The position numbers were made by a program, and so were the translations under genes. The notes below the pieces were generated by a model. It was not told the DNA's origin. It did no database searches and was given only the letters and a program-made list of their open reading frames with translations. Positions 10,283-55,369 of a stretch of 64,000 bases of DNA are shown piece by piece. Position 1 is the stretch's first letter, and each line of letters begins with the position of its first letter. Origin of the DNA: Lactobacillus sp. CBA3605 (GTDB lineage: Bacteria > Bacillota > Bacilli > Lactobacillales > Lactobacillaceae); NCBI RefSeq assembly GCF_002970915.1, contig NZ_CP027190.1, forward strand, positions 1,426,001 to 1,490,000, read 5' to 3'.

Positions 10283-10298
10283 TGTTTCACGTGAAACA
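10283..10298. promoter_or_regulatory. parS centromere site 1
   Basis: TGTTTCACGTGAAACA is a perfect 16-bp palindrome identical to the parS consensus bound by ParB/Spo0J in Firmicutes. Chromosomal parS sites cluster around oriC, where ParB loading organises the origin and recruits SMC. This copy lies in the short gap between the MFS gene and proB. Confidence 0.92.
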
Positions 10299-31633: not shown

Positions 31634-32515
31634 GTATTCCCCACGCATGTGGGGGTGATCCCTCGTATAGCCCATTCATTTGCTCTTCAACGCTGTATTC
31701 CCCACGCATGTGGGGGTGATCCTTTGACTGACCCATCCGTCCCATTTATGATTAGGTATTCCCCACGCATGTGGGGGTGATCCAAGGGACCGCACTAAAA
31801 ACCTGTGATATCAGTAGGTATTCCCCACGCATGTGGGGGTGATCCCTAACCGTCCTAAATATGTGGTCGACTGGGTCTGTATTCCCCACGCATGTGGGGG
31901 TGATCCTTACTTGCTTACTACTTATATACTACTACCCCTGTATTCCCCACGCATGTGGGGGTGATCCCGTCAGAATTAAGTTCATCCGTAATCTCCACTG
32001 GTATTCCCCACGCATGTGGGGGTGATCCCCTTATACCTATACTACTACTGTTACTACTAGGGTATTCCCCACGCATGTGGGGGTGATCCTAAGTATCTGC
32101 CAACTTTTTTGACTGAAAAACCGTATTCCCCACGCATGTGGGGGTGATCCTATAGAAGCTTCTAGTGAGTTAGCCAGCTCATCGTATTCCCCACGCATGT
32201 GGGGGTGATCCATTACACTGACGTCAAAACACGAACCGCATTTAGTATTCCCCACGCATGTGGGGGTGATCCTCACACCACGTGCTTTTAACATTTTGTG
32301 AAATTGTATTCCCCACGCATGTGGGGGTGATCCTTTAACCTACAGAGCCCGGCCATGGACGGAATGTATTCCCCACGCATGTGGGGGTGATCCCCTTAAG
32401 GACGACTACCTTTATCTAAGCCTAAAGTATTCCCCACGCATGTGGGGGTGATCCTTGCAGTTCCCGTCTTCGTCTCGCTCAATCAAAGTATTCCCCACGC
32501 ATGTGGGGGTGATCC
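31634..32515 (+). CRISPR. Type I-E CRISPR array 1 (15 repeats, 14 spacers)
   Basis: Fifteen 28-bp repeats begin at 31634, 31695, 31756, 31818, 31879, 31940, 32001, 32062, 32123, 32184, 32245, 32306, 32366, 32427 and 32488. They look identical (start GTATTCCCCACGC, end GGGGGTGATCC) and contain the hairpin CCCCAC-GCAT-GTGGGG, where Cas6 cuts. Spacers are 33 bases except one of 34 and one of 32. The base after each repeat varies, consistent with a 29/32 arrangement in which the last base derives from a variable PAM position. The perfect repeats suggest an active, recently growing array. Two spacers (31907-31939 and 32029-32061) share TATACTACTAC. Confidence 0.98.
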
Positions 32516-32549: not shown

Positions 32550-32939
32550 ATGATAACTTTAGCAAACGAAACGATTAAAACTAGTTATGCTAGAAAGCAA
32601 CAGCGATCCGATAAATTTGTTGATCAACTCGTAGAACACGAAATAATCATATATATATTATATGGACTAATAACCTTTATCCAATTTTTTTTCTGGGTAT
32701 CGTTTAACGGAACCTGGTTTGCAGAACACTATGCAATATTTGTGCTAATTTATATCGGCACATTCTTATTCAGACGCACTGCAATCAAAGAACAGCTAGT
32801 TTTCAAAAATCCTTTTAAAGCCAGTTTGTTTTTAGTAACAGACATTATTTTAACGTTAACACTTACCCCAATTGTATTTTTCCGAAGCATCCCATGGGCT
32901 GTAAGAACAATAATAAATTTACCAAAATATCAAAAATGA
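32550..32939 (+). CDS. Small membrane protein between the CRISPR array and cas genes
   Basis: A 129-residue protein of unknown family. A basic N-terminus (SYARKQQRSDK) precedes three hydrophobic segments (about residues 32-53, 60-73 and 90-110), with Phe-rich FIQFFFWVSFNGTW in the first. AGGGGG lies ten bases before the ATG, and the start is only 34 bases after the last repeat, so its transcript probably comes from the array leader. A strong terminator overlaps its stop codon. It may be an accessory protein of the locus or an unrelated gene trapped there; I recognise no motif that decides. Confidence 0.7.
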   Translation: MITLANETIKTSYARKQQRSDKFVDQLVEHEIIIYILYGLITFIQFFFWVSFNGTWFAEHYAIFVLIYIGTFLFRRTAIKEQLVFKNPFKASLFLVTDIILTLTLTPIVFFRSIPWAVRTIINLPKYQK

Positions 32940-32973
32940 TGTACATGATTTTATCATGTACATCATTTTTTTT
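32934..32973 (+). terminator. Terminator after the array 1 unit
   Basis: AATGATGTACATGAT pairs perfectly with ATCATGTACATCATT around a three-base loop (32950-32952) and runs into T8. It ends the transcript that would contain array 1 and the membrane-protein gene. Confidence 0.9.
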
Positions 32974-33952
32974 ATCGTGTACATAATAAGCCACGCATTC
33001 CTTAAAAATTAACGTTTTTATCTTATTTAGCATGGACATGAAAATTTAAAATCATGACAATCATCCAACGATTTAGTATGAATAATTTTCAATACATACA
33101 CATACCATATTCAGTAAGAATTCCTATTCAAAGATAATTACATAACACATTGAAATTCGTGGCTACACTGGGTCTACAAAATACTTACAAATATTGTTCG
33201 TGTTTAAAAAGACTATTAAAACGGCATTCAGAGCGGAAAAGTTCTAAGTCAGTCCAGACTACTTTGTTGCCAAAAAAGAGAATAGTGGCTACAAATCGAT
33301 AGCATACGCAAAAACAAATTGGCTCAAAAATGAATGTGAAATCACTTCCTGGAATTAAATTTTCTGAAATAATGAACATTTATTTGAATATTGTGCTTTA
33401 TCCATAATGAAATCCAATTAATATGACTACAATAGACACATAGTAGCCATATAGGAAAAATTAAAACAATCAGCTAATATCGCTACTAATTAAGGCTTTT
33501 AACCTGATTTCTATTTAGATAAAAAAATATGTAGCCACTTGTAGCCATCTGTAGCCACAGCCGCTTAATCCCATATAATCAGTGTTTAAGAGCTTAAATA
33601 CTATATTAATTCTATTAAAAATTAAAAATAAACTCTTAATATCTATTAAATAAATAGTCGAACAAAATTATTTATTAGACGCTTTTGATAATTATGTCTA
33701 TAAGTATCAATGATATAGAGAACTGTTTACACAAACTAAAAAGTTTATGACAAACATAAATACCCGAACAATCAAACAAAACACTCACACACAATTTTTG
33801 TGACTTGTTTTTTTAATACTTTTATTTTTTGTACTAGATTAATTTTTTCGAATGGTAGTTCCCTAACTACTAATTTGGTGTTAATCGTCATAACACATTT
33901 TTCAAAAAATATTTGAGTTGCATTAAGGTAAAGTGAATTACCGACTAACTTT
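32974..33952. other. AT-rich gene-free gap between array 1 and the cas operon
   Basis: Nearly 1 kb with strong AT bias and no convincing gene; a 64-codon minus-strand frame at 33185-33379 has no ribosome-binding site and no family resemblance I can see. The motif TGTAGCCA recurs: inverted copies at 33159-33167 and 33285-33293, a direct copy at 33442-33449 and three tandem copies at 33530-33558. The region may be the scar of a lost mobile element or a binding region. Confidence 0.5.
33530..33558 (+). repeat. Three tandem 10-bp iterons (TGTAGCCA)
   Basis: TGTAGCCAC, TGTAGCCAT and TGTAGCCAC start at 33530, 33540 and 33550, exactly ten bases apart and so on the same face of the helix, a common arrangement for a cooperative binding protein. 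Two inverted copies lie 240-370 bases upstream. Confidence 0.65.
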
Positions 33953-33981
33953 TTGACTCAATCAAATTATTAGCTTTTAAT
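33953..33981 (+). promoter_or_regulatory. Predicted cas operon promoter
   Basis: TTGACT (33953-33958) and TTTAAT (33976-33981) are spaced 17 bases apart, giving a start near 33988 and a leader of about 187 nt before cas3. The leader would contain the two degenerate CRISPR repeats and the 26-codon reading frame. The sequence just after the -10 is the partial match to the pseudo-spacer. Confidence 0.6.
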
Positions 33982-34007
33982 TCCTTATCATATTTGCTAA
34001 TATTGAT

Positions 34008-34083
34008 ATGTTCCCCATACATGGGGGTGATCCAATGATTAGGAAGGTCTGATCAGTGTTCCCTACAGATGTGGGGGTGAATT
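34008..34083 (+). ncRNA. CreR/CreA-like guide: two degenerate CRISPR repeats around a 22-nt pseudo-spacer
   Basis: Pseudo-repeat 1 (34008-34033) keeps the 3' handle GGGGGTGATCC of the array repeat and a hairpin shortened by one base pair on both sides (CCCCA-TACA-TGGGG). Pseudo-repeat 2 (34056-34083) keeps a hairpin with one T-G pair (CCCTAC-AGAT-GTGGGG) but has lost the handle. This is just what is needed to release one guide RNA: handle from repeat 1, 3' processing at repeat 2. The pseudo-spacer (34034-34055) is 22 nt, not 33. From its second base, it matches the minus strand at 33991-33981 in 10 of 11 positions (ATGATtAGGAA against ATGATaAGGAA). The mismatch is at position 6, and the target is flanked by AAT, which fits the AAN PAM known for a related type I-E system. 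The target covers the start region of the predicted cas promoter. Autorepression by Cascade is inferred from the known CreA/CreR principle. Confidence 0.65.
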
Positions 34084-34107
34084 ATGAGGGTTAAAGTGGG
34101 GGCACTA

Positions 34108-34188
34108 ATGAATACGGTTACAAAAGTTTGCCTTAAGGTTGAATCGTTTAAGCAAACAAAGGAGGAGCGTGGTTATGAAACTATCTAA
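34108..34188 (+). CDS. Possible 26-codon leader peptide overlapping the cas3 start
   Basis: ATG at 34108 follows a G-rich stretch (GTGGGGG). The frame encodes 26 residues (MNTVTKVCLK ... ERGYETI) and stops at 34186-34188, fourteen bases inside cas3. It would pass ribosomes across the cas3 ribosome-binding site, so it could couple or interfere with cas3 translation. There are no tandem rare arginine codons of the kind described for CreT toxin RNAs. It may be chance. Confidence 0.3.
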   Translation: MNTVTKVCLKVESFKQTKEERGYETI

Positions 34189-36922
34189 ACAAGCCGGCGC
34201 TTTATGGGCCAAAAAGCAATCGAAAGACGGTCAACAAGCGTGGCTACCACTGATCGTACATTTAATTGATACTAAAAATACCATTAACTGGTTATTTAAT
34301 CATTGGCTGAGTGCTGGTCAACGGCAGTTATTGCAGGGGACATTATCCGAGGCGGAAGCGCAGCAGCTGGTTGAACTAGTGGGCTTTATCCATGATATTG
34401 GAAAAGCCACCCCTGCTTTTCAAACTAAAAAGTCGTATGACCGCGATGACGAATTGGATGACCAGTTAAAGGCACAGTTAGCGTACAGCGGGTTTCTTGA
34501 TTTAGATAAGTTATGCTTGGCATCACCGAATAAGTCGCTGCATGCTCGCGCAGGTGAAGTGATTGTTGATGAGCTTGGGCTACCAACCGCAATTGGCGCA
34601 ATTATTGGTGGTCATCATGGCAAGCCAGAAAGTAGTCGGCCATTTGAACAATTGGAAGCTTATACAGCCAATTATTTTCAAAGTGATAATGACCCTGAAT
34701 TACAGGCCCCCTGGCGGCAGGTTCAAAAAGACTTATTTGACACGGGGCTAGCATCGGCAGGTTATCACTCAGCAACTGAAGTGCCCACGATTAAGCAACC
34801 GCAGGCGGTTATCTTAGAGGGGGTACTCATCATGGCTGATTGGTTAGCCTCTAGTGAGTATTTAGATTACGAGCAAACCATACCACTCTTTCCGCTAATT
34901 CCGCTAAATCAGTCTTGGCAATCAATCAATCTAACCACGCGGTTTCAAGCCGCTATCAGTGCTTGGGACCTGAGTGACGAGTGGGACCCACAGCGTGTTC
35001 AGCTAGAGCATGCTTATCAACAACGGTGGGGTTATGAGCCGCGGCCGGTTCAAAAAGTGATGACTGCGGCAATCGGTGCACTCACTGATCCCGGGATGGT
35101 TATTGTGGAGGCACCCATGGGATTGGGAAAGACTGAAATTGCCCTAATTGCGGCTGAAGAGCTGGCGTATAGAACGGGTAGTGATGGGGTTTTTATCGGG
35201 TTACCTACGCAAGCGACCACCAATGCCATGTTTGAGCGGGTCGACGATTGGTTACGCTTTTTAGCGCAACAGCAAGATAAAAATTTGGCTATTAAGTTAA
35301 TGCACAGTAAATCGCAATTCAATCAAACCTATCGAGAATTGCCCCATGCAGCGAATATTTATATGGCCGAAGACGATGCGGGTGCAGTGGTGGTTAATGA
35401 TTGGTTTGCTGGGAAAAAGTCTATTTTAACGAAGTTTACGGTTGGGACGATTGATAATCTATTACTGATGGGACTGAAACAAAAGCATTTATTCCTGCGT
35501 CATTTAGGTTTCAGCGGCAAGGTTGTTATTATTGATGAAGTCCACGCCTATGACATTTATATGGATCAGTACCTCTATAAAGCCATCAGTTGGTTAGGTG
35601 CCTACCATGTGCCAATTGTGATTTTGTCAGCGACGTTACCAAAAGCCAAACGAAAAGCGTTATTAGAGGCGTATTTGGTTGGCAAATATGGTCGCAAATA
35701 TAAAAAACAATTAGTTGCACCAGCAAACTGGGCCGAAACGCAAGCGTATCCGTTGTTAAGTATGCTGGATGGTTGTGAAATCAAACAAGTTGAAGACTTT
35801 CCAGGTCAGAGTGACCAACCGCCGATGAAGGTACAAGTCAAACAGTTAATTGGCTCGGATGAGGAACTGATGTCACAAGTGACGGCCAAGATAGCGGCTG
35901 GTGGCGTTGCCGGGGTGATTGTTAATACCGTAAAACGTGCGCAAACATTGGCGCAGTTAGTTCCGGCGGATATTAAATTAATGGTTTTACATTCGGCTTT
36001 TTTAGCAACGGATCGAACAGCGCAGGAAACGGCTTTACAGGCGGCGATTGGGAAGCAGGGTGACCGGCCGACTAAATTAATCGTGATTGGGACCCAAGTG
36101 CTAGAGCAGTCTTTGGACATTGATTTCGATGTTTTATACACGGATATTGCACCGATGGATCTTATTTTACAACGGGTTGGGCGGCTACATCGTCATCAAA
36201 TTGAGCGCCCACAGGCCTTGAAAGTGCCGCAAGTATTTATTATGGGGATTCAAGACCAAAATGATTATGGCGCTGGGAATGAAGCAGTTTATGGCAAGTA
36301 TTTGCTGATGAAAACCGCGCATTTTCTGAAAAACACGCTGACGTTACCAACTGATATTTCACCATTGGTTCAGCAAGTTTATGATTCGCAAACGGATGGT
36401 GAAGTTGCTGATATTGAGACCGCTAAGCAAAAATTTGATACTGATTTGGCACAAGAAAGTAAAAAGGCAAATGTCTTTCAAATTGCTAAGCCTAACCTTA
36501 GAGCTGAAGCCACAATCCATGATTGGTTAGGGCGTAATCTGGGTCGTGTTGATCAAGATGAGCAAAAGGCTAGTGCGGCGGTGCGCGATATTAAGGAAAC
36601 TTTGGAAGTTATTTTGGTGCAGCAGACAAGTGCCGGTAAGTTCTTGTTAGATGGGCGACCGCTAGACAGTGTGCCGGAACAAGTCATTGCGCAACAGGTC
36701 ATCCGATTGCCAAACGCAGTAACGCCACGGATTGATCAGGCTATTCAAACCTTAGAAACGTTAACTAGTCACTACTTTTTAGGCTGGCAAAATAACGTCT
36801 GGCTGAAAGGGGCTTTGGCACTACCATTGGATCAAAATTTAGCAACCGATTTTGAGGGCTGGCACTTATCGTATACGCCAACTCTGGGTCTGAGCTATAT
36901 AAAGGAGGATGAGCATGAATAA
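34175..36922 (+). CDS. cas3: CRISPR-associated nuclease-helicase Cas3
   Basis: A 915-residue fused HD nuclease and superfamily 2 helicase. The HD domain has GFIHDIGKATPAF (near residue 72) and GGHHGKP (near 145). Helicase motif I is APMGLGKTEIAL near 313, motif II IIDEVHAYD (DEVH) near 452, motif III LSATLPKA near 487, and motif VI QRVGRLHRH near 667. Cas3 is recruited by Cascade bound to target DNA and unwinds and degrades the displaced strand. I chose the ATG at 34175, eight bases after AAAGGAGGA; a TTG at 34139 would include that site. The stop overlaps cse1 by eight bases. Confidence 0.97.
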   Translation: MKLSKQAGALWAKKQSKDGQQAWLPLIVHLIDTKNTINWLFNHWLSAGQRQLLQGTLSEAEAQQLVELVGFIHDIGKATPAFQTKKSYDRDDELDDQLKAQLAYSGFLDLDKLCLASPNKSLHARAGEVIVDELGLPTAIGAIIGGHHGKPESSRPFEQLEAYTANYFQSDNDPELQAPWRQVQKDLFDTGLASAGYHSATEVPTIKQPQAVILEGVLIMADWLASSEYLDYEQTIPLFPLIPLNQSWQSINLTTRFQAAISAWDLSDEWDPQRVQLEHAYQQRWGYEPRPVQKVMTAAIGALTDPGMVIVEAPMGLGKTEIALIAAEELAYRTGSDGVFIGLPTQATTNAMFERVDDWLRFLAQQQDKNLAIKLMHSKSQFNQTYRELPHAANIYMAEDDAGAVVVNDWFAGKKSILTKFTVGTIDNLLLMGLKQKHLFLRHLGFSGKVVIIDEVHAYDIYMDQYLYKAISWLGAYHVPIVILSATLPKAKRKALLEAYLVGKYGRKYKKQLVAPANWAETQAYPLLSMLDGCEIKQVEDFPGQSDQPPMKVQVKQLIGSDEELMSQVTAKIAAGGVAGVIVNTVKRAQTLAQLVPADIKLMVLHSAFLATDRTAQETALQAAIGKQGDRPTKLIVIGTQVLEQSLDIDFDVLYTDIAPMDLILQRVGRLHRHQIERPQALKVPQVFIMGIQDQNDYGAGNEAVYGKYLLMKTAHFLKNTLTLPTDISPLVQQVYDSQTDGEVADIETAKQKFDTDLAQESKKANVFQIAKPNLRAEATIHDWLGRNLGRVDQDEQKASAAVRDIKETLEVILVQQTSAGKFLLDGRPLDSVPEQVIAQQVIRLPNAVTPRIDQAIQTLETLTSHYFLGWQNNVWLKGALALPLDQNLATDFEGWHLSYTPTLGLSYIKEDEHE

Positions 36923-38624
36923 GCAAACGTTTAATTTAACTACGGCGCCATGGATTAAAGTCATTGAAAGGCAGACTAATCAAACACGAACGGTTTCTTT
37001 GATTGATTTATTTGAACATGCCCAAGATTACCGGCAATTAGCCGGCGAGATGCATGCCCAAGATTTGGCAATCTTACGTTTTTTACTCGCAATATTAACC
37101 ACCGTGTATTCACGATTTGATGCCGATGATGAGCAATATGATTGGTTAGTACCCGGTCCAGATTCGGCGCAATCATTAGTGGTCGATGAAGAGGCAGATG
37201 GGCCTGATATTCAGGAAGACTTGTTAGGCACCTGGCGACAACTCAATCAATCTGGTCATTTTTCCGCTGCAGTTACGACATATTTAAAACAACAAACTAA
37301 ACGGTTTGACTTTTTTGGGGAACGGCCTTTTTATCAAGTAACAACGAAAGATTATGATGCCTTAGTCCCTAAAAACAAGCAGATTGCGGCGGGAAAAGGG
37401 CAGGTTGCGCTTAAACAACTGAATCGCCGCATTTCGGAAAGTAACAATACACCAGCCCTTTTTTCACCAAAGGCGGGGGAAACTAAGAATGAATTAGCAT
37501 TGGATGAATTAGTCCGTTGGGTTATGACCTATCAGAATTTTACTGGGGTAACGGATAAAACCAAAGTCGTAACTGATGAAAAGTTTTCTAATTCAGCAGG
37601 ATGGCCTTATCGGCTTAATCCGGTTTTTGCCAAAGGAACGTCCCTGTTTGAAACGTTAATGTTGAATTTAATCTTAGTTAATAAACGGGATGAAATGGCC
37701 CCATATACGTTACAAAGACCAGTGTGGGAGTACCCGACAGTCAGTGCCTATATTGATGAACGAAAGCAACAGCTGCAGCCAGATAATTTAGCCGCGCTGT
37801 ATACTACTTGGTCCAGAATCCTACATATTGAGTGGGATGCAGCTGGACAGCCGACTATTTTTAGTGCGGGAATTCCAATCTTTGCCGCCGATAATGCCTT
37901 AATTGAACCGATGACAACTTGGCGATTGGATAAGAAAACCAATGATTATCGGCCGGCGGTTAAGGGATTACGATCATTAGGGATTGCGATGTGGCGTAAT
38001 TTTGGTCAGTATGTCAAAGTCAGACAAGCGGATGATAGTCATGAACCGGGGATTGTAATTTGGCTACGGACGCTAAAAGAAAAAGAGATAATTTCTCATA
38101 ATAAACCGTTGATTCTGAATTCGGTAGCTTTAATTAGTGATGGGAATGCAACCTCGCAGGCACCGGCAGTTGAAGTGGTCGATGATATGCAACTGCAAGC
38201 CGATGTCTTGTTTGATCCAGAAAATGTTGACTATTGGCCGCTGCGAATTGAAGACACGATTGAATTAACCCAAATTATTGGCACTGATTACTATCATTTC
38301 GCTAGCGATGTTGGTCGCATTCGTAATTTGGATGTGCGCACATTTGCCAACGGAATGAGTGCTAAATTTTACGAAGCGTTAAACGAACCGTTCAAGGCCT
38401 GGTTGGCCGACTTAACGGGAGACGATAATCGTGAAGAAAAAATTAATTTGTGGAAGCAAACCTTGGAGAGCATTGTGGTGCAGGCGGTTGATGAGACGTT
38501 ACAAATCAGCTCACCACGCGATATTAAAGGTATCAATACGGAACATGGCATTTTAAACATCTTTACCGCAAAGAATCGTCTCATGTACAACTTACGGCAG
38601 CATCTCAAGCCACAGAAAGGGTGA
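36915..38624 (+). CDS. casA: Cascade large subunit Cse1 (CasA, Cas8e)
   Basis: A 569-residue protein starting FNLTTAPWIKVIE, the usual Cse1 N-terminus (fNL...pWIpv). Other typical parts are GEMHAQDLAILRFLLAIL near residue 42 and FFGERPFYQV near 137. The C-terminal four-helix bundle spans about 420-565. Cse1 recognises the PAM, helps DNA melting and recruits Cas3. The ATG at 36915 follows AAAGGAGGA directly, so I prefer it to the ATG at 36909. The gene lies in the standard type I-E order, overlapping cas3 and 10 bases ahead of cse2. Confidence 0.95.
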   Translation: MNKQTFNLTTAPWIKVIERQTNQTRTVSLIDLFEHAQDYRQLAGEMHAQDLAILRFLLAILTTVYSRFDADDEQYDWLVPGPDSAQSLVVDEEADGPDIQEDLLGTWRQLNQSGHFSAAVTTYLKQQTKRFDFFGERPFYQVTTKDYDALVPKNKQIAAGKGQVALKQLNRRISESNNTPALFSPKAGETKNELALDELVRWVMTYQNFTGVTDKTKVVTDEKFSNSAGWPYRLNPVFAKGTSLFETLMLNLILVNKRDEMAPYTLQRPVWEYPTVSAYIDERKQQLQPDNLAALYTTWSRILHIEWDAAGQPTIFSAGIPIFAADNALIEPMTTWRLDKKTNDYRPAVKGLRSLGIAMWRNFGQYVKVRQADDSHEPGIVIWLRTLKEKEIISHNKPLILNSVALISDGNATSQAPAVEVVDDMQLQADVLFDPENVDYWPLRIEDTIELTQIIGTDYYHFASDVGRIRNLDVRTFANGMSAKFYEALNEPFKAWLADLTGDDNREEKINLWKQTLESIVVQAVDETLQISSPRDIKGINTEHGILNIFTAKNRLMYNLRQHLKPQKG

Positions 38625-38634
38625 TTAAAAACTT

Positions 38635-39231
38635 ATGACAGGAAAAATAGCAACAACGACCGCACGGATTATTAAGACGCTTTATCGTAATGGTGAACCC
38701 AATAAGGCAGTATTAGCTGATTTAAGAAGTGCTGCTACCGTGACGAGTCAACGTGCTCAAGGGGTTTGGCCAATTATGATGGCGAACTTAGAACGCTATC
38801 AACTTAGTCGCGATGGTGTGCCAACTTCAGCCGAAGTTGCGGTATATGCGGCACTACGGTTCTATGCCATACAGCAACAGGGACAAACACAGTTAGTTTA
38901 TGAATCGGCGGAAAATGGCAATAGACAGGCATTCTTTTCGGCTTTAGCGCAGTTAAGGGCTCAAGAAGAGACCCGGGTGGCATTAGATCGACGGGTACAA
39001 CCGCTGTTAGCGACGACGAATCCGACCAGTGTGATTAATGGATTGGCCCAATTGGTTAAAATATTAAAGGCTAATGATAGACAGCAAAAAATTGATTATG
39101 CTTGGTTAGCACAAGATTTATATGGGCTACAGGCCAGCTATGAGCAAGCTAATCGGGTGCGTTTACGCTGGGGACAACAGTATTTTTGGATTAAGCAAGC
39201 AACCACTAAAAACGAAGGAGCACAAAACTAA
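38635..39231 (+). CDS. casB: Cascade small subunit Cse2 (CasB, Cas11e)
   Basis: A 198-residue, mainly helical and basic protein. It contains ADLRSAATVTSQRAQGVWPIMMANL near residue 26, matching the Cse2 pattern LR.a....... wp, and a late RLRWGQQYFW segment. Two Cse2 subunits form the belly of Cascade and steady the displaced DNA strand. The gene has GAAAGGGTGA before its ATG and ends with TAATG, which shares one base with the start of cas7. Confidence 0.93.
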   Translation: MTGKIATTTARIIKTLYRNGEPNKAVLADLRSAATVTSQRAQGVWPIMMANLERYQLSRDGVPTSAEVAVYAALRFYAIQQQGQTQLVYESAENGNRQAFFSALAQLRAQEETRVALDRRVQPLLATTNPTSVINGLAQLVKILKANDRQQKIDYAWLAQDLYGLQASYEQANRVRLRWGQQYFWIKQATTKNEGAQN

Positions 39232-40304
39232 TGACGAGTAAAAATTTATATATTGATTTGAATGTGTTACAAACCGTGCCATCATCAAATATTAACCGTG
39301 ACGATACTGGGGCACCGAAAACGGCCCTTTATGGTGGTGTCATGCGGGCTCGGGTTTCTTCTCAAAGTTGGAAGCATGCAGTTCGGAAGGAATTTAAAAA
39401 TGACAATGTTTCGGTTGGAACCCGGACTAAAACGGCGCCGACTTTACTAGCGACTGAGCTACAAAAATGTGATGCAACCTTAGATGATGAAGCAGCCATG
39501 AAAAAAGTGACCGAAATTTTTAAAGCCGCTGGCATTAAAATCAATAAAGATGGCGAAACCGGCGCACTCTTATTAATTAGTCATGGTCAACTTAGCAAGT
39601 TAGCGCAATATGCCATTGATAATGAAGAGCTAGACAAAAAAGAACTGAAAAAAGTGTTAAAAGGCGATCAGTCATTGGATTTGGCGTTGTTTGGCCGCAT
39701 GGTGGCAGATAACCCTGAATTGAATGTGGATGCCTCAGCACAGGTGGCCCATGCGATTTCGACCCATGAAGTTGTGCCAGAATATGATTATTTCACGGCA
39801 CTGGATGATGAACAACAAAAAGATACTGCTGGTGCAGCAATGTTAGGAACTATCGACTTTAACTCAGCAACACTCTATCGTTATGCTAATTTGAACATGA
39901 CTGAATTAAGCCATAATCTCAATGAAACTGATGCGATTCAGGGGGCCACGGCCTTTATTAAAGATTTCTTGTTGTCAATGCCAAGTGGTAAGCAGAATAC
40001 ATTTGCGAATAAGACGTTGCCTAGTTATGTGATGATTACGTTGCGGACGGACACCCCAGTTAACTTAGTATCGGCCTTTGAAGAACCAGTTACTTCCAGT
40101 AAGGGCTATGTTGCACCGTCAATCAAAAAACTTGAAGCTGAATATACAGCTACGCGTCAATTTTTGGCACAACCACTCGAAAATTTAATTTTGAGTAAAA
40201 CTGAGTCACAGGTTGGAAAACAGGTCACAAACCTCGATGAACTTTTGGCGCAGGTTACCGAGGCTTTATCAAAGGCGGTTCAGGATGAAAACACTAACGA
40301 TTAA
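39231..40304 (+). CDS. cas7: Cascade backbone subunit Cas7 (Cse4, CasC)
   Basis: A 357-residue RAMP protein. It begins YIDLNVLQTVPSSNINRDDTGAPKTALYGG, the typical Cse4 N-terminus (h.l....psn.NRd..G.pK...yGG..RaR.SSQ), followed by VMRARVSSQSWKHAVR. Six copies coat the crRNA in Cascade and hold every sixth guide base flipped out, which is why position-6 mismatches are tolerated. The start overlaps the cse2 stop by one base, and the end overlaps cas5 by 20 bases. Confidence 0.96.
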   Translation: MTSKNLYIDLNVLQTVPSSNINRDDTGAPKTALYGGVMRARVSSQSWKHAVRKEFKNDNVSVGTRTKTAPTLLATELQKCDATLDDEAAMKKVTEIFKAAGIKINKDGETGALLLISHGQLSKLAQYAIDNEELDKKELKKVLKGDQSLDLALFGRMVADNPELNVDASAQVAHAISTHEVVPEYDYFTALDDEQQKDTAGAAMLGTIDFNSATLYRYANLNMTELSHNLNETDAIQGATAFIKDFLLSMPSGKQNTFANKTLPSYVMITLRTDTPVNLVSAFEEPVTSSKGYVAPSIKKLEAEYTATRQFLAQPLENLILSKTESQVGKQVTNLDELLAQVTEALSKAVQDENTND

Positions 40305-40968
40305 ATTAACGGCGCCGTTACAGTCATATGGTAACGAAGCGAGTTTTTCACGGCGTACCACGACGCATTATCCGACCAAAAGTGCTGTGATTGGAATGGT
40401 TGCAGCAGCTTTGGGTTATCGGCGATCGGATCAGCGAATTTTAGCACTCAATGATTTGAGTTTTGCAGTCAGGATTGATCAAGCTGCTAAAATACTCACG
40501 GATTATCAAACGGTTGAATGGAAAAAGGATACGAGAAAGATTACGTATCGAGACTATCTTCAAGATGCGGTGTTCATGGTCGCACTCGGTAGTCAGCAGA
40601 ATCAGTTAATTGATGAGATTCAGGATGCTTTACGTCATCCCCATTTTCAATTGTTTTTAGGGCGGCGTTCAAATGCTCCGGCTGGTGTTCTTCAGTTACA
40701 GGTGTTCACAGAGACCACTCCGCTTGCGGTATTAGAACAGGTTGCTTGGCAGGCAGCGCCATGGTATCAAAAAAAGAATCAAGTGCGCACGTTAGATATT
40801 GTTGCGGATGCTAATTTAATACCAACGGCTCAAGGTGCGATGATTAAAGACCAAGTTGAGTCGTTTGACCAACGTGATCGGCGATATGGCTTTCGAGCGA
40901 TTGCTAAGACCAGCGTCAGCTTGAACCAGCTAGGTACTCAGGCACATGATATTATGGGATTTCTCTAG
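40285..40968 (+). CDS. cas5: Cascade subunit Cas5 (CasD)
   Basis: A 227-residue RAMP protein beginning TLTIKLTAPLQSYGNEASFSRRTT, followed by the signature PTKSAVIGMVAAALGYRR near residue 32. Cas5 caps the crRNA 5' handle and contacts Cse1. I chose the ATG at 40285, which lies within the last codons of cas7 and follows GGTTCAGG; the longer in-frame start at 40213 is only overlap. AAGGAG for cas6 follows the stop at once. Confidence 0.95.
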   Translation: MKTLTIKLTAPLQSYGNEASFSRRTTTHYPTKSAVIGMVAAALGYRRSDQRILALNDLSFAVRIDQAAKILTDYQTVEWKKDTRKITYRDYLQDAVFMVALGSQQNQLIDEIQDALRHPHFQLFLGRRSNAPAGVLQLQVFTETTPLAVLEQVAWQAAPWYQKKNQVRTLDIVADANLIPTAQGAMIKDQVESFDQRDRRYGFRAIAKTSVSLNQLGTQAHDIMGFL

Positions 40969-40980
40969 AAAGGAGCAAGT

Positions 40981-41652
40981 ATGTATTTATCAAGAGTTGA
41001 AATTGATTATAACAATCGGTATAAAATCAAAGATTTAACACATCTTGGGGCCTTTCATAATTGGGTTGAACAGAGTTTTCCAGCTGAATTAGTCGCAGAA
41101 CAACGGAATCGGCATTTATGGCGGCTTGATGAATTGGCTGGCAGAAAATATTTGTTAGTGTTAAGTGCCGATAAGCCCGATTTAGACTTGCTGGTGAAAT
41201 ACGGTGTGCCTGGAACGGCGATAACGAAATCGTATGATCAATTCTTAGACAAGCTACAAGTGGGGCAGTTGATGCGGTTTCGGCTAACGGCTAATCCCAC
41301 GCATACCATCAGTCAACCAGGTAAAGCGCAAGGTCGAGTGGTCCCACATATTACGATTGACCAACAACGAAAATGGTTAATGGATCGTGCTGAAAAATCA
41401 GGCTTTCAGTTAAGCACGCCAGTGGCAGCTGATGTATCGGACTTACAGGAGTCGCTAACCTTCGATATTGTTAGTCGAGAATGGCCCGTCTTGCATCGCA
41501 AAGCTGGTCGGGGTGTCCGCTTGAGTCGGGTGACTTTTGAGGGCGTCTTAAGAATCACTGATGTGGCTGATTTTAAGCAAACCTTGATTAAAGGACTTGG
41601 TCGTGAAAAAGCCTTTGGAATGGGCTTAATGACGGTTATCCCGGAGGATTAG
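40981..41652 (+). CDS. cas6: CRISPR pre-crRNA endoribonuclease Cas6 (Cse3, CasE)
   Basis: A 223-residue Cas6e protein. It begins MYLSRVEIDYNNRYKIKDLTHLGAFHNWVEQSFP, where the His in the L.H..... W..... fP pattern corresponds to the catalytic His. Its C-terminal Gly-rich loop is LIKGLGREKAFGMGLMTV. It cuts at the base of the repeat hairpin to leave the eight-base 5' handle. AGAAAGGAGCAAG precedes the ATG. Confidence 0.95.
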   Translation: MYLSRVEIDYNNRYKIKDLTHLGAFHNWVEQSFPAELVAEQRNRHLWRLDELAGRKYLLVLSADKPDLDLLVKYGVPGTAITKSYDQFLDKLQVGQLMRFRLTANPTHTISQPGKAQGRVVPHITIDQQRKWLMDRAEKSGFQLSTPVAADVSDLQESLTFDIVSREWPVLHRKAGRGVRLSRVTFEGVLRITDVADFKQTLIKGLGREKAFGMGLMTVIPED

Positions 41653-43499
<1,847 letters not shown>

Positions 43500-43526: not shown

Positions 43527-43798
43527 GTATTCCCCACGCATGTGGGGGTGATCCCACATGATTGATCGTAATATTGATCGTAAAGAAGTATTCCCCACGC
43601 ATGTGGGGGTGATCCTACAGTCAAAAGTAGAGTGACCGGTGCATGGAAGTATTCCCCACGCATGTGGGGGTGATCCCGTATCGGCTGCAATCCCTTTGAT
43701 ATCATATTGGTATTCCCCACGCATGTGGGGGTGATCCTCATATCACATAAAGTTGCTTTGGCAAGAAAATGTATTCCCCACGCATGTGAGGGTGATCC
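43527..43798 (+). CRISPR. Type I-E CRISPR array 2 (5 repeats, 4 spacers)
   Basis: Repeats start at 43527, 43588, 43649, 43710 and 43771, with 33-base spacers. The first four equal the array 1 repeat. The last has one change (GTGAGGG instead of GTGGGGG), as expected at the trailer end. The array has no AT-rich leader of its own, only 27 bases after the cas2 stop, so it is probably transcribed with the cas operon and may no longer take up spacers. Confidence 0.97.
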
Positions 43799-43941
43799 TC
43801 AATGGCATTGATGTACTAAAGCAGATTTTTTTGCTCTCGGCGCCCAAAAATCAATTTGTAGACAAAACAGTTAGTTTTTAATACGAGTTAAGTTAAAATT
43901 TAAAATGAAAAAAATTTTAAATTCAGATGGAGGTTAATATC

Positions 43942-44238
43942 ATGCCTAAAACAACTAAAGAACAAACTACCTATACCATCAAGATGTCACGCCAAGGACA
44001 ATTCACGATTCCTGCCGAATTACGTCGCGAATTAAATATTCAAGGAGGCGATGAAATGTTAATCAGAGAAGACAAGAACAGTAATCTTGTACTAGAGAAA
44101 AAACCAACTGCTACTGATTGGGAAAACGCAGTCGCCGGGCTTCCAATTGAACGCGTTGTACTCAATGAAGATGGCTCAGTTAATGCTAAAAAATCTCCCT
44201 TCTTTGCAAACTGGATGAAAGAGGATGACTACAGTTAA
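43942..44238 (+). CDS. AbrB/MazE-type antitoxin
   Basis: A 98-residue protein with a swapped-hairpin AbrB-type DNA-binding domain (about residues 10-52): KMSRQGQFTIPAELRRELNIQGGDEMLIRE, including the conserved G-x-(F/I)-x-(I/L)-P. The C-terminal 45 residues would wrap the toxin. It binds its own promoter, probably the AT-rich TTTAAAATGAAAAAAATTTTAAA dyad region near 43897-43921. I chose the ATG at 43942, eight bases after GGAGG. The gene overlaps the following toxin frame, the usual MazEF arrangement, but that frame is broken. Confidence 0.85.
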   Translation: MPKTTKEQTTYTIKMSRQGQFTIPAELRRELNIQGGDEMLIREDKNSNLVLEKKPTATDWENAVAGLPIERVVLNEDGSVNAKKSPFFANWMKEDDYS

Positions 44239-44445: not shown

Positions 44446-44774
44446 CTAAGGCTTTTTTGAAATCAACTATATATCTTTCACAGCATATAACCATTTTTAG
44501 GAGAAATTGTTTCACGTGAAACAGCCATACTTTTGCAGGTATGAAAAAACAGGAAATTAATAATTGGTATTATTCTAAAAATTTATAGAGGGTAGTTTAC
44601 ATTTCAGTGCTGTTCATCTAAACTAGAATAAGGCAGATTTTAATAATACATTCCTTATCATGTTAATTTAAACGTTGTGTTTCACACGTCGATTGACGAG
44701 TTAAGGATTATTAATGAGTAGCCTGAGTCCAAATACTGATGACTTTAAAAGCTGATCGTACTTGGAGGATTAGA
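44446..44774. other. Intergenic region containing parS site 2
   Basis: About 330 AT-rich bases without a gene. A perfect parS lies at 44508-44523. The last bases hold the ribosome-binding site of the zinc-ribbon gene (TTGGAGG). Nothing else recognised. Confidence 0.5.
44508..44523. promoter_or_regulatory. parS centromere site 2
   Basis: A second perfect TGTTTCACGTGAAACA, 34 kb from the first and 2.1 kb from the third. It lies in a gene-free stretch, typical for ParB loading sites. Confidence 0.92.
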
Positions 44775-45164
44775 ATGGAAGAGACAACAAGATTTTGTTT
44801 TAAGTGTGGGGAGAAAATTTCTATTAATGCTGATTTTTGTCCAAAATGTGGCGCAAAACAACCTAATAATCAGGAACAAAATACAGTAACACCACAGCCT
44901 GCGGCTACACAAACGGTTAACAATTATCAAGAGCCAGTTCAAGCGAAAGCTGATGAAAAAACTGGTTGGTTAGTATTCTGGGGCTGGGTTTCAGCCGTTA
45001 TTTCACTTTTTGTTCCAATTATTGGCGTGATTTCAATTGTTTTAGGCGCTATGGTGATTAAAAAGCACCGAACTGTTGCAGGGACGGTTTTAATTGTTTT
45101 TGCTATTATTTTTATTATTCTAGGGTTAACCGGATTTTCTGAAGGATTCTTTGGTGCAATTTAA
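44775..45164 (+). CDS. Zinc-ribbon membrane protein
   Basis: A 129-residue protein with an N-terminal zinc ribbon (CFKCGEKISINADFCPKCGAK: two CxxC pairs, residues 8-29), a Gln/Asn/Pro-rich linker (about 30-65) and two membrane helices (about 72-95 and 103-125). Proteins of this layout are common in lactobacilli; their role is unknown, and the zinc ribbon would face the cytoplasm. The ATG at 44775 is six bases after TTGGAGG. A 13-bp hairpin follows the stop. Confidence 0.8.
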   Translation: MEETTRFCFKCGEKISINADFCPKCGAKQPNNQEQNTVTPQPAATQTVNNYQEPVQAKADEKTGWLVFWGWVSAVISLFVPIIGVISIVLGAMVIKKHRTVAGTVLIVFAIIFIILGLTGFSEGFFGAI

Positions 45165-54523: not shown

Positions 54524-55369
54524 ATGGCTAGTTTTATTGCAAGTAATGACGATATGAAAAACTTTTTAAATCTGCCAAGTATGAATGATCAAGCTGGGAT
54601 TGGCTTTGCCTATGCAACGGATGAGACTCTATTGAAAAAATTAATTCCGGCACCGCTAAAATTATTAGCGCCAGTGGTTTGTGGTTACGTCGTTCACATG
54701 GGAAAACCGACATTTAGTGCCCCATATCTGGAACAAAGTTTATTTGCTTTGGTGAGCTACAAAGACAAGATGATGGGTGCCTATCCAATCTCGTTACTAC
54801 TGCACGGTCCTGGTGCTGAAAGTGGGGTTATCGCTGGTCGTGAAGGTGCCGGGATTCCTAAAAAGTTAGCCGATGCCATTGAATTACGCCGCAACGATAA
54901 TTCTGCGACAGCGACCGTCAAACGCCACGGCAAAACATTGCTAGATGTGTCATGGACGGCTGGCGAACTAAACGATCCATCAATCATGCAACAATTTGCG
55001 GGTCAATTGGCATTGGGTAAGGAAGCAGAAATGAATAGTTTCTTCTACACCTATGATTTAGATCAGCATCCCGATGGCTCCAATCATTTCACGAATGTTG
55101 AACTAGTGGCAACGCAATTACGGTCGTTAGCTGATCAAGTTGAACCTGGAAATTTGACGATTACCATGAATTCGACGGATGATGATCCGTTTGGCGAGCT
55201 AAAAGTTTTGAAACCACTTGGGGCAGCCTGGTTCCACTTTGACACTTCAGTCATGTTCAATACGTTGAAGTTAGAAACGGTTGATGCTGATGTGACGATG
55301 CCAAAATTATTAACTAGTCGCTATGATCGGACGTTCTTCAATCCGAAAGCGACCACATATACGATTTAG
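54524..55369 (+). CDS. Acetoacetate decarboxylase family protein
   Basis: A 281-residue protein with the family core ESGVIAGREGAGIPKKLADAIEL near residue 103. The Lys pair of IPKK corresponds to the Schiff-base Lys and its neighbour in acetoacetate decarboxylase. Members of the family include true decarboxylases and other Schiff-base lyases or aldolase-dehydratases, so the reaction here is open. AAAAGGAGTG precedes the ATG, 30 bases after the SDR gene; it ends 35 bases before the nitroreductase. Co-transcription with an SDR suggests a keto-acid or keto-ester substrate, which is inference. Confidence 0.88.
   Translation: MASFIASNDDMKNFLNLPSMNDQAGIGFAYATDETLLKKLIPAPLKLLAPVVCGYVVHMGKPTFSAPYLEQSLFALVSYKDKMMGAYPISLLLHGPGAESGVIAGREGAGIPKKLADAIELRRNDNSATATVKRHGKTLLDVSWTAGELNDPSIMQQFAGQLALGKEAEMNSFFYTYDLDQHPDGSNHFTNVELVATQLRSLADQVEPGNLTITMNSTDDDPFGELKVLKPLGAAWFHFDTSVMFNTLKLETVDADVTMPKLLTSRYDRTFFNPKATTYTI

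Follow-up and report, generated by a model that had tools for sequence, protein, structure and literature searches.

The window, by which we mean the whole stretch of 64,000 nucleotides analysed here (C1:1426001-1490000 of a 2.55-Mb genome), comes from a Lactiplantibacillus host and contains a complete type I-E operon (cas3, cse1, cse2, cas7, cas5, cas6e, cas1, cas2) between two CRISPR arrays, one of 15 repeats and one of 5. In the arrays the repeat reads GTATTCCCCACGCATGTGGGGGTGATCC, with a period of mostly 61, and a pattern search located a third array, of 32 handle sites, elsewhere in the genome. Open frames with Pfam matches account for all genes from cse1 to cas2, the last of which carries a fused exonuclease domain according to the same kind of match, and cas3 can be read from an ATG at 34175 preceded by AGGAGG, its longest open frame beginning at 34139. 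The features of the locus, in window coordinates, are the following.

31634..32515, plus strand: CRISPR array 1, 15 repeats
33953..33981, plus strand: promoter-like TTGACT-17-TTTAAT of the cas leader, the top-scoring promoter-like site
33981..33991, minus strand: putative target in the cas promoter, opposite guide positions 1-11, read from the sequence and identical in the sister species
33992..33994, minus strand: flank AAT, PAM-like and read from the sequence (the sister species has AAC)
34006..34033, plus strand: psi-R1, a degenerate repeat (28-mer in the sequence) with a hairpin and an intact GTGATCC handle
34034..34055, plus strand: pseudo-spacer of 22 nt in the sequence, with the guide starting at 34035
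34056..34083, plus strand: psi-R2, a degenerate repeat that in the sequence has lost the handle (GTGAATT)
34175..36922, plus strand: cas3
36909..43499, plus strand: cse1, cse2, cas7, cas5, cas6e, cas1, cas2
43527..43798, plus strand: CRISPR array 2, 5 repeats
44648..44664, minus strand: second match of the guide, AAC plus ATGATAAGGAATGT, reaching position 14 with mismatches only at 6 and 12
44775..45164, plus strand: gene of a zinc-ribbon protein (129 aa, hydrophobic stretches, likely a membrane protein), downstream of the second match

Around these features, an 18-bp terminator-like hairpin (32932-32970) marks the start of the AT-rich 1-kb gap that precedes the cas leader, a MazE/AbrB-like antitoxin gene (43927-44238) lies 3' of array 2, with no frame of at least 40 residues listed directly 3' of it up to 44739, and one motif, which we take to be parS-like, is present in three exact copies at 10283, 44508 and 46631. 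An Rfam scan of 33000-34300 gave zero matches, as did a search of plasmids with the cas leader. When phages were compared with the spacers, the matches of array 1 formed a single imperfect group, in Lactobacillus phages (with an indel and no AA flank in the one phage in which the match was read) and array 2 gave weak matches only, to unrelated phages; the exact repeat of the window was not found in viral contigs.

The cas leader holds two degenerate repeats around a 22-nt pseudo-spacer directly 5' of cas3, just as a preliminary description of this DNA had proposed. That description was right about the existence of the upstream repeat but had placed it at 34008-34033, and the full 28-mer is 34006-34033. 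It had also seen a processing hairpin in each repeat, one of them preserved through a matched loss on both arms, and the GTGATCC handle in the upstream repeat alone; both points hold in the sequence, psi-R2 reading GTGAATT. What is found is a degenerate-repeat mini-CRISPR beside an intact cas operon, as expected of a type I-E CreR, and in its own genome it matches only itself (1 match). The predicted fold of psi-R1 by itself is a 6-bp stem, and the pseudo-spacer (34034-34055) is predicted to form an 8-bp hairpin of its own that takes up much of the seed (z -4.4); when the whole unit is folded, psi-R1 is predicted to pair with psi-R2, with the seed partly buried in the pseudo-spacer hairpin. 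Counted across the family, such hairpins were present in 7/20 pseudo-spacers at p<0.05, as compared with 6% of 250 array spacers, and then in only 1 (at 33 nt) of 10 further loci, and because of this last count we rejected the hairpin as a general trait of the family. In the window, it might conceivably weaken the guide in competition and hence turn it into a sensor of crRNA load. A 34-codon reading frame (34084-34188, GGGGGTGAATTATG) runs from the psi-R2 end and overlaps the start of cas3; by eye, it is also open in the sister species.

In what follows, the score of a match is the number of matched positions before the first mismatch, with every sixth position skipped; only sites flanked by AA on the protospacer strand count. 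The guide, ATGATTAGGAA from 34035, matches the minus strand at 33991-33981 (ATGATAAGGAA) in 10/11 positions, pairing at positions 1-5 and 7-11 with the mismatch at position 6, and the 5' flank of the target is AAT; the AA is a scan requirement and hence no independent test of the PAM. The sequence confirms this match as it had first been described, together with the overlap of the target with the -10/start of TTGACT-17-TTTAAT, which in our own scoring ranks first among the promoter-like sites within the 640-nt leader and is not listed at 33953-33981 by a stricter consensus promoter scan. Relative to the predicted transcription start, the target spans about -7 to +4. The guide has the PAM-flanked partial complementarity to the cas promoter that is expected of a CreR (AA being assumed as the PAM and the promoter being predicted), and it is not the spacer unrelated to its own cas leader that would mark the end of an ordinary array. 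It scores 10, and among 73 other leaders only that of the sister species reaches 10, the next best scoring 9. This match is the shortest among the 25/28 accepted loci (see below) that score at least 10, and since a score of 10 also arises in three loci judged to be chance, one such match is not decisive alone; seen within its mini-CRISPR and alongside the pattern across the family, we find it convincing. The degenerate repeats and the shortness of the match at one locus are also what might be seen in a functionless remnant of a decaying CRISPR array that resembles the leader by chance, and the results on conservation and on the family bear on this explanation.

The sister species (L037), whose Cas3 is 95% identical to that of the window, differs at 13/199 positions of the leader (33940-34138), none of which lies in the seed, the target, the -10, psi-R1 or the AA of the flank. 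One -35 base differs, and the changes nearest to target and guide are at the free third PAM base 33992, at 34005 and at 34067 (in the psi-R2 loop). Guide-target pairing is kept while the free PAM base changes, so that guide and target are co-conserved in this relative, and the identity of seed, target and handle speaks against a remnant. Guide and target differ together at matching seed positions in four related pairs (L046/L047, L070/L073, L085/L087 and L096/L097); with targets chosen by match, mirrored seed differences are partly built in, and they count for little outside these four pairs.

For the family-wide survey, a cas3 search (E<=1e-50) found 12/21 genomes of the genus and 73/397 of the family, and the 73 regions were oriented by cas3 and searched upstream for repeat-like pairs, making 74 loci with the window. 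Guides between a handle-intact and a handle-less repeat numbered 42, in 38/74 loci (window included), and their scores were bimodal: two scored 7, 17 scored 8-15, and 23 scored 2-6, these last matching the leader no better than chance, as decaying remnants would. The maximum for 88 inner array spacers was 7, and when the 42 guides were swapped onto other leaders, a score of at least 10 was reached in 4/3066 cases (two of them the window/sister pair) and one of at least 12 in 0/3066. A wider scan took in every handle-like site that follows a stem, in 101 loci (27 in addition to the 74), nearly all from Lactobacillales; L141 and L153 were kept although titled as other bacteria, and nine loci (other phyla or a cas3 fragment) are excluded from the 101. 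Here, scores of at least 11 amounted to 22/5576 for own leaders versus 7/66212 for swapped ones. A score of exactly 10 was shared in this loose scan by the window, the sister, L067, L106 and L109, of which L067 and L106 lie within arrays and L109 lacks a true repeat; these three were judged to be chance and excluded, and L084, L085, L093 and L150 (scores 12, 8, 9 and 8) were added by hand. The accepted loci with a mini-CRISPR guide matching their own cas leader came to 28/101, 25/28 of them scoring at least 10, and 73/101 loci lack such a guide by these scans; in 10 loci taken from the scans, a second element resembling a repeat can be seen by eye after the guide, though this was not a search criterion. 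Accepted loci include those of Lactiplantibacillus plajomi, Levilactobacillus suantsaiihabitans, Levilactobacillus acidifarinae, Loigolactobacillus bifermentans, Lentilactobacillus rapi, Lentilactobacillus parabuchneri, Lentilactobacillus raoultii, Secundilactobacillus odoratitofui, Limosilactobacillus mucosae and Lactobacillus equicursoris, and five (L194, L197, L199, L201, L202) belong to another family of the order. In 14/28 accepted loci the target touches the one promoter-like site that scores best in its leader, the expected number being 2.8. The target lies downstream of the guide in 19/28 loci and upstream of the mini-CRISPR in 9/28, the window among them, and in the latter one promoter would therefore drive both the guide and the cas genes.

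Mismatches in these pairs are not evenly distributed. The preliminary description had assigned the mismatch at position 6 to a flipped-out base and, in agreement with this, those of the family cluster at 6 and 12, Cascade being described in an excerpt of PMC5904413 as flipping out every sixth crRNA base. For each guide we took the best AA-flanked site by a plain 16-position count, and 22/31 candidate guides passed 12/16; the others were 3 near-duplicates and 6 below 12, including the window (10/16), for whose guide the plain count picks another site, with an equal count of 10. In the 22 guides, mismatches amounted to 0/110 at positions 1-5, 13/22 at 6, 5/110 at 7-11, 18/22 at 12, 0/22 at 13, 2/22 at 14, 5/22 at 15 and 8/22 at 16. 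Because the sixth-skipping score, which favours mismatches at 6 and 12, had supplied some of the 31 candidates, the count was redone on 17 loci chosen for their repeats only, of which 11 pass: 0/55 at 1-5, 5/11 at 6, 3/55 at 7-11, 9/11 at 12 and 0/11 at 13, with L107 in this subset possibly a chance site. Judging from these sequences, we take the pattern at 6 and 12 to be the footprint of Cascade. The period-6 mismatches and the excess of matches across the family argue against a functionless remnant, an explanation that we regard as very unlikely, and for an element that is, in all likelihood, functional in the window.

We consider it highly probable, from what the sequences tell, that the element is the CreR gene of this type I-E system and serves cas autorepression: very probably, a short guide RNA from the mini-CRISPR directs Cascade to the cas promoter, which the complex would occupy without cutting it. 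Against this speak the shortness of the match in the window, the 73/101 loci without such a guide, the chance scores of 10 in the loose scan, the changed -35 base in the sister, the predicted fold of the whole unit and the better fit of the guide to a second site, described below. A Cascade-guided feedback loop on the cas operon had been suggested from the start, and it gains support from the family-wide matches, the period-6 mismatches and the conservation in the sister species; its steps, namely transcription, processing, Cascade loading, binding and repression, we infer from the observed parts, match, conservation and family pattern. In the proposed model, the promoter at 33953-33981 would transcribe the leader with psi-R1, the pseudo-spacer and psi-R2 and continue into cas3, and Cas6e would cut both hairpins to leave an RNA in which the GUGAUCCA handle is joined to a short stretch of guide, the predicted product being an GUGAUCCA-AUGAUUAGGAAGG RNA that ends in psi-R2. 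Once loaded, Cascade would pair with the promoter at guide positions 1-5 and 7-11, the AA flank adjoining, and this pairing would be too short for Cas3 cleavage, so that the result would be a block on transcription, which would affect the cas operon and the guide alike. In line with this, an excerpt of PMC5904413 states that 5 bp can suffice for Cascade binding and that interference needs >18 bp. Repression would ease whenever Cascade is scarce, inhibited or occupied by other crRNAs.

The closest mutational parallel is the CreA of H. hubeiense, for which the accessible part of PMC8501985 reports that positions 1-5 and 7-11 are needed and 6 and 12 are free. Haloarcula CreA resembles the window element, on the same partial account (PMC8501985), in its two degenerate repeats, its seed (1-5 and 7-11, with 6/12 free), its position upstream of the cas operon and the repression of one promoter by its own guide, and differs in belonging to type I-B and in repressing an RNA toxin. 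Since creTA of H. hubeiense is likewise described there as lying directly upstream of the cas operon and using the same seed, and since the 34-codon frame 34084-34188 begins at the psi-R2 end, the promoter repressed in the window might be thought to make a small toxic RNA. Yet the small frame sits after psi-R2, no small toxin RNA gene was found under the repressed promoter, and the window leader, unlike CreTA, has no room for a toxin between promoter and psi-R1, with only ~20 nt from the predicted start to psi-R1. In 15/28 loci, moreover, the target lies either beyond the point where cas3 homology begins or no more than 70 nt before it, which leaves little room for a toxin RNA. We thus hold a toxic RNA to be most improbable, and autorepression of the cas operon by a CreR to be the better account.

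CreRs, reportedly presented by Liu et al. in 2023 (Cell Host Microbe), are said to be cas-regulating RNAs of types I-B, I-E and V-A. The available portion of PMC13131331 gives the same three types, and CreR is also described in what could be consulted of PMC12737573 and PMC12948488. As portrayed in these excerpts, CreR shares with the window element a mini-CRISPR RNA with a guide partly matching the cas promoter, and cas autorepression, which in the window is a prediction; the predicted second target of the window guide is a difference. CreR-type autorepression of type I-E has, on these partial sources, already been reported, and the window element is in all likelihood a further example of that kind. 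Among the entries and abstract openings listed in our literature searches, none dealt with CreRs of Lactobacillus or Streptococcus, which says little about the subscription literature. In type II systems, Cas9 autorepression takes its guide from the long form of the tracrRNA, not from a mini-CRISPR. It is similar to the case of the window in that the effector represses its own expression (PMC13131331, in part).

The second match of the guide (44648-44664), 10.7 kb from the target in the cas promoter, is the longest in the 30 kb scanned, with 12 informative bases versus 10 at the leader. It pairs at guide positions 1-5, 7-11 and 13-14 and scores 12 in both the window and the sister, and foreign guides gave 6 sites scoring at least 9 in 502 locus scans. 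A promoter-like TTTACA-17-TAAACT, the same in both species, has a predicted start that would lead to the gene at 44775, and the second site would lie ~17-33 nt downstream of that start. The zinc-ribbon protein encoded there (44775-45164) has no KilA-N match in Pfam. Its homologues at E<=1e-10 in the large set are three, from the sister, L. bifermentans (53% identity) and L. otakiensis (shorter), and a close homologue (95-100% identity) is present in 2/21 Lactiplantibacillus genomes, only those of the window and the sister, with G003 showing a 33% match that has an internal stop. The gene is CRISPR-linked in the window, the sister and L. otakiensis, and the L. bifermentans copy is on another contig than cas. 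We put forward tentatively, as a possibility, that one guide represses the cas operon and, more strongly, the promoter of this clade-specific zinc-ribbon membrane protein. Such dual targeting would be the surprising part, autorepression itself being of a known kind. If true, Cascade loss (e.g. through an anti-CRISPR) would raise cas expression and release the zinc-ribbon protein at once, the roles of CreR and of CreA/CreP would be joined in one RNA, and cas autoregulation and Cascade-guarded genes could share one RNA. CrePA, as depicted in part of PMC12737573, is alike in that a crRNA-like guide shuts a protein-coding promoter through the Cas effector; the CreP described there typically bears a KilA-N domain, whereas the window has a zinc-ribbon protein and a guide that also targets cas.

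The RNA might even be mainly antitoxin-like, in the role of CreA, with 44648-44664 as its primary target and the cas promoter as a secondary or additional one. The better match at the second site than at the leader and the scarcity of foreign-guide sites in the 502 scans would fit this, as would the limitation of the close homologue to the same two species and the location of the site within 21 nt (44647-44667) that the sister has letter for letter, between flanks that show an indel and substitutions. However, the same 340 bp around the site contain seven other identical runs of at least 15. Of the 14-letter AANATGATNAGGAA pattern the genome has four copies, one of them in the leader, one at 44651-44664 of the window and two in other places, and the sister genome has counterparts of all four sites plus one more, the two remaining ones being thus conserved likewise. 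The two targets share the PAM type and 12 bases, including the unmatched guide positions 6 and 12, and because of these guide-unmatched bases it is possible that both sites are part of a protein operator common to them. To this must be added that the zinc-ribbon protein is without known toxicity, that the L. bifermentans guide has no match in 3.4 kb around the homologue gene, that none of the handle-preceded guides of L079 matches upstream of the L. otakiensis homologue, and that the scan of 21 other mini-CRISPR loci gave no second site above score 9. We therefore judge a mainly antitoxin-like RNA to be rather unlikely, and keep cas autorepression as the principal role.

Taken at face value, the sequences would place RNA-guided cas autorepression in lactic acid bacteria. 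The 28 natural guide-promoter pairs, with mismatches at the bases flipped out by Cascade, offer ready material for testing seed rules, and whoever builds editing tools from the native type I-E systems of lactic acid bacteria would have to allow for the feedback.

The handle plus the window seed is present in 3/397 genomes of the family. One genome of the same genus (G001), in which neither a Cas3 nor a Cas7 match was detected, carries an orphan mini-CRISPR with this seed (L210 1500-1590, G001:C1:52578-52665), in the order TATAAT, psi-R1, 33-nt pseudo-spacer, psi-R2. The first 14 bases of its guide are those of the window, and the two pseudo-spacers share the seed plus CTGAT, the other hairpin arm, the hairpin in G001 being weaker (z -1.9, p 0.06). 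This orphan may be the relic of a lost locus. On plasmids, 21 from Lactiplantibacillus match array 1, among them NZ_CP023773.1, which at 55147-55185 (L205 1501-1539) carries a single copy of the window's CRISPR repeat, after which comes a terminator-like hairpin. We discarded the idea that this copy mimics the cas-targeting guide, its own guide having no AA-flanked match that scores at least 8 in the leaders or in the one plasmid taken whole. The copy adjoins partition genes and, by eye, transposase-like sequence (the DNA was read in one plasmid and the gene table in two), and it could be a relic or, alternatively, an RNA anti-CRISPR.
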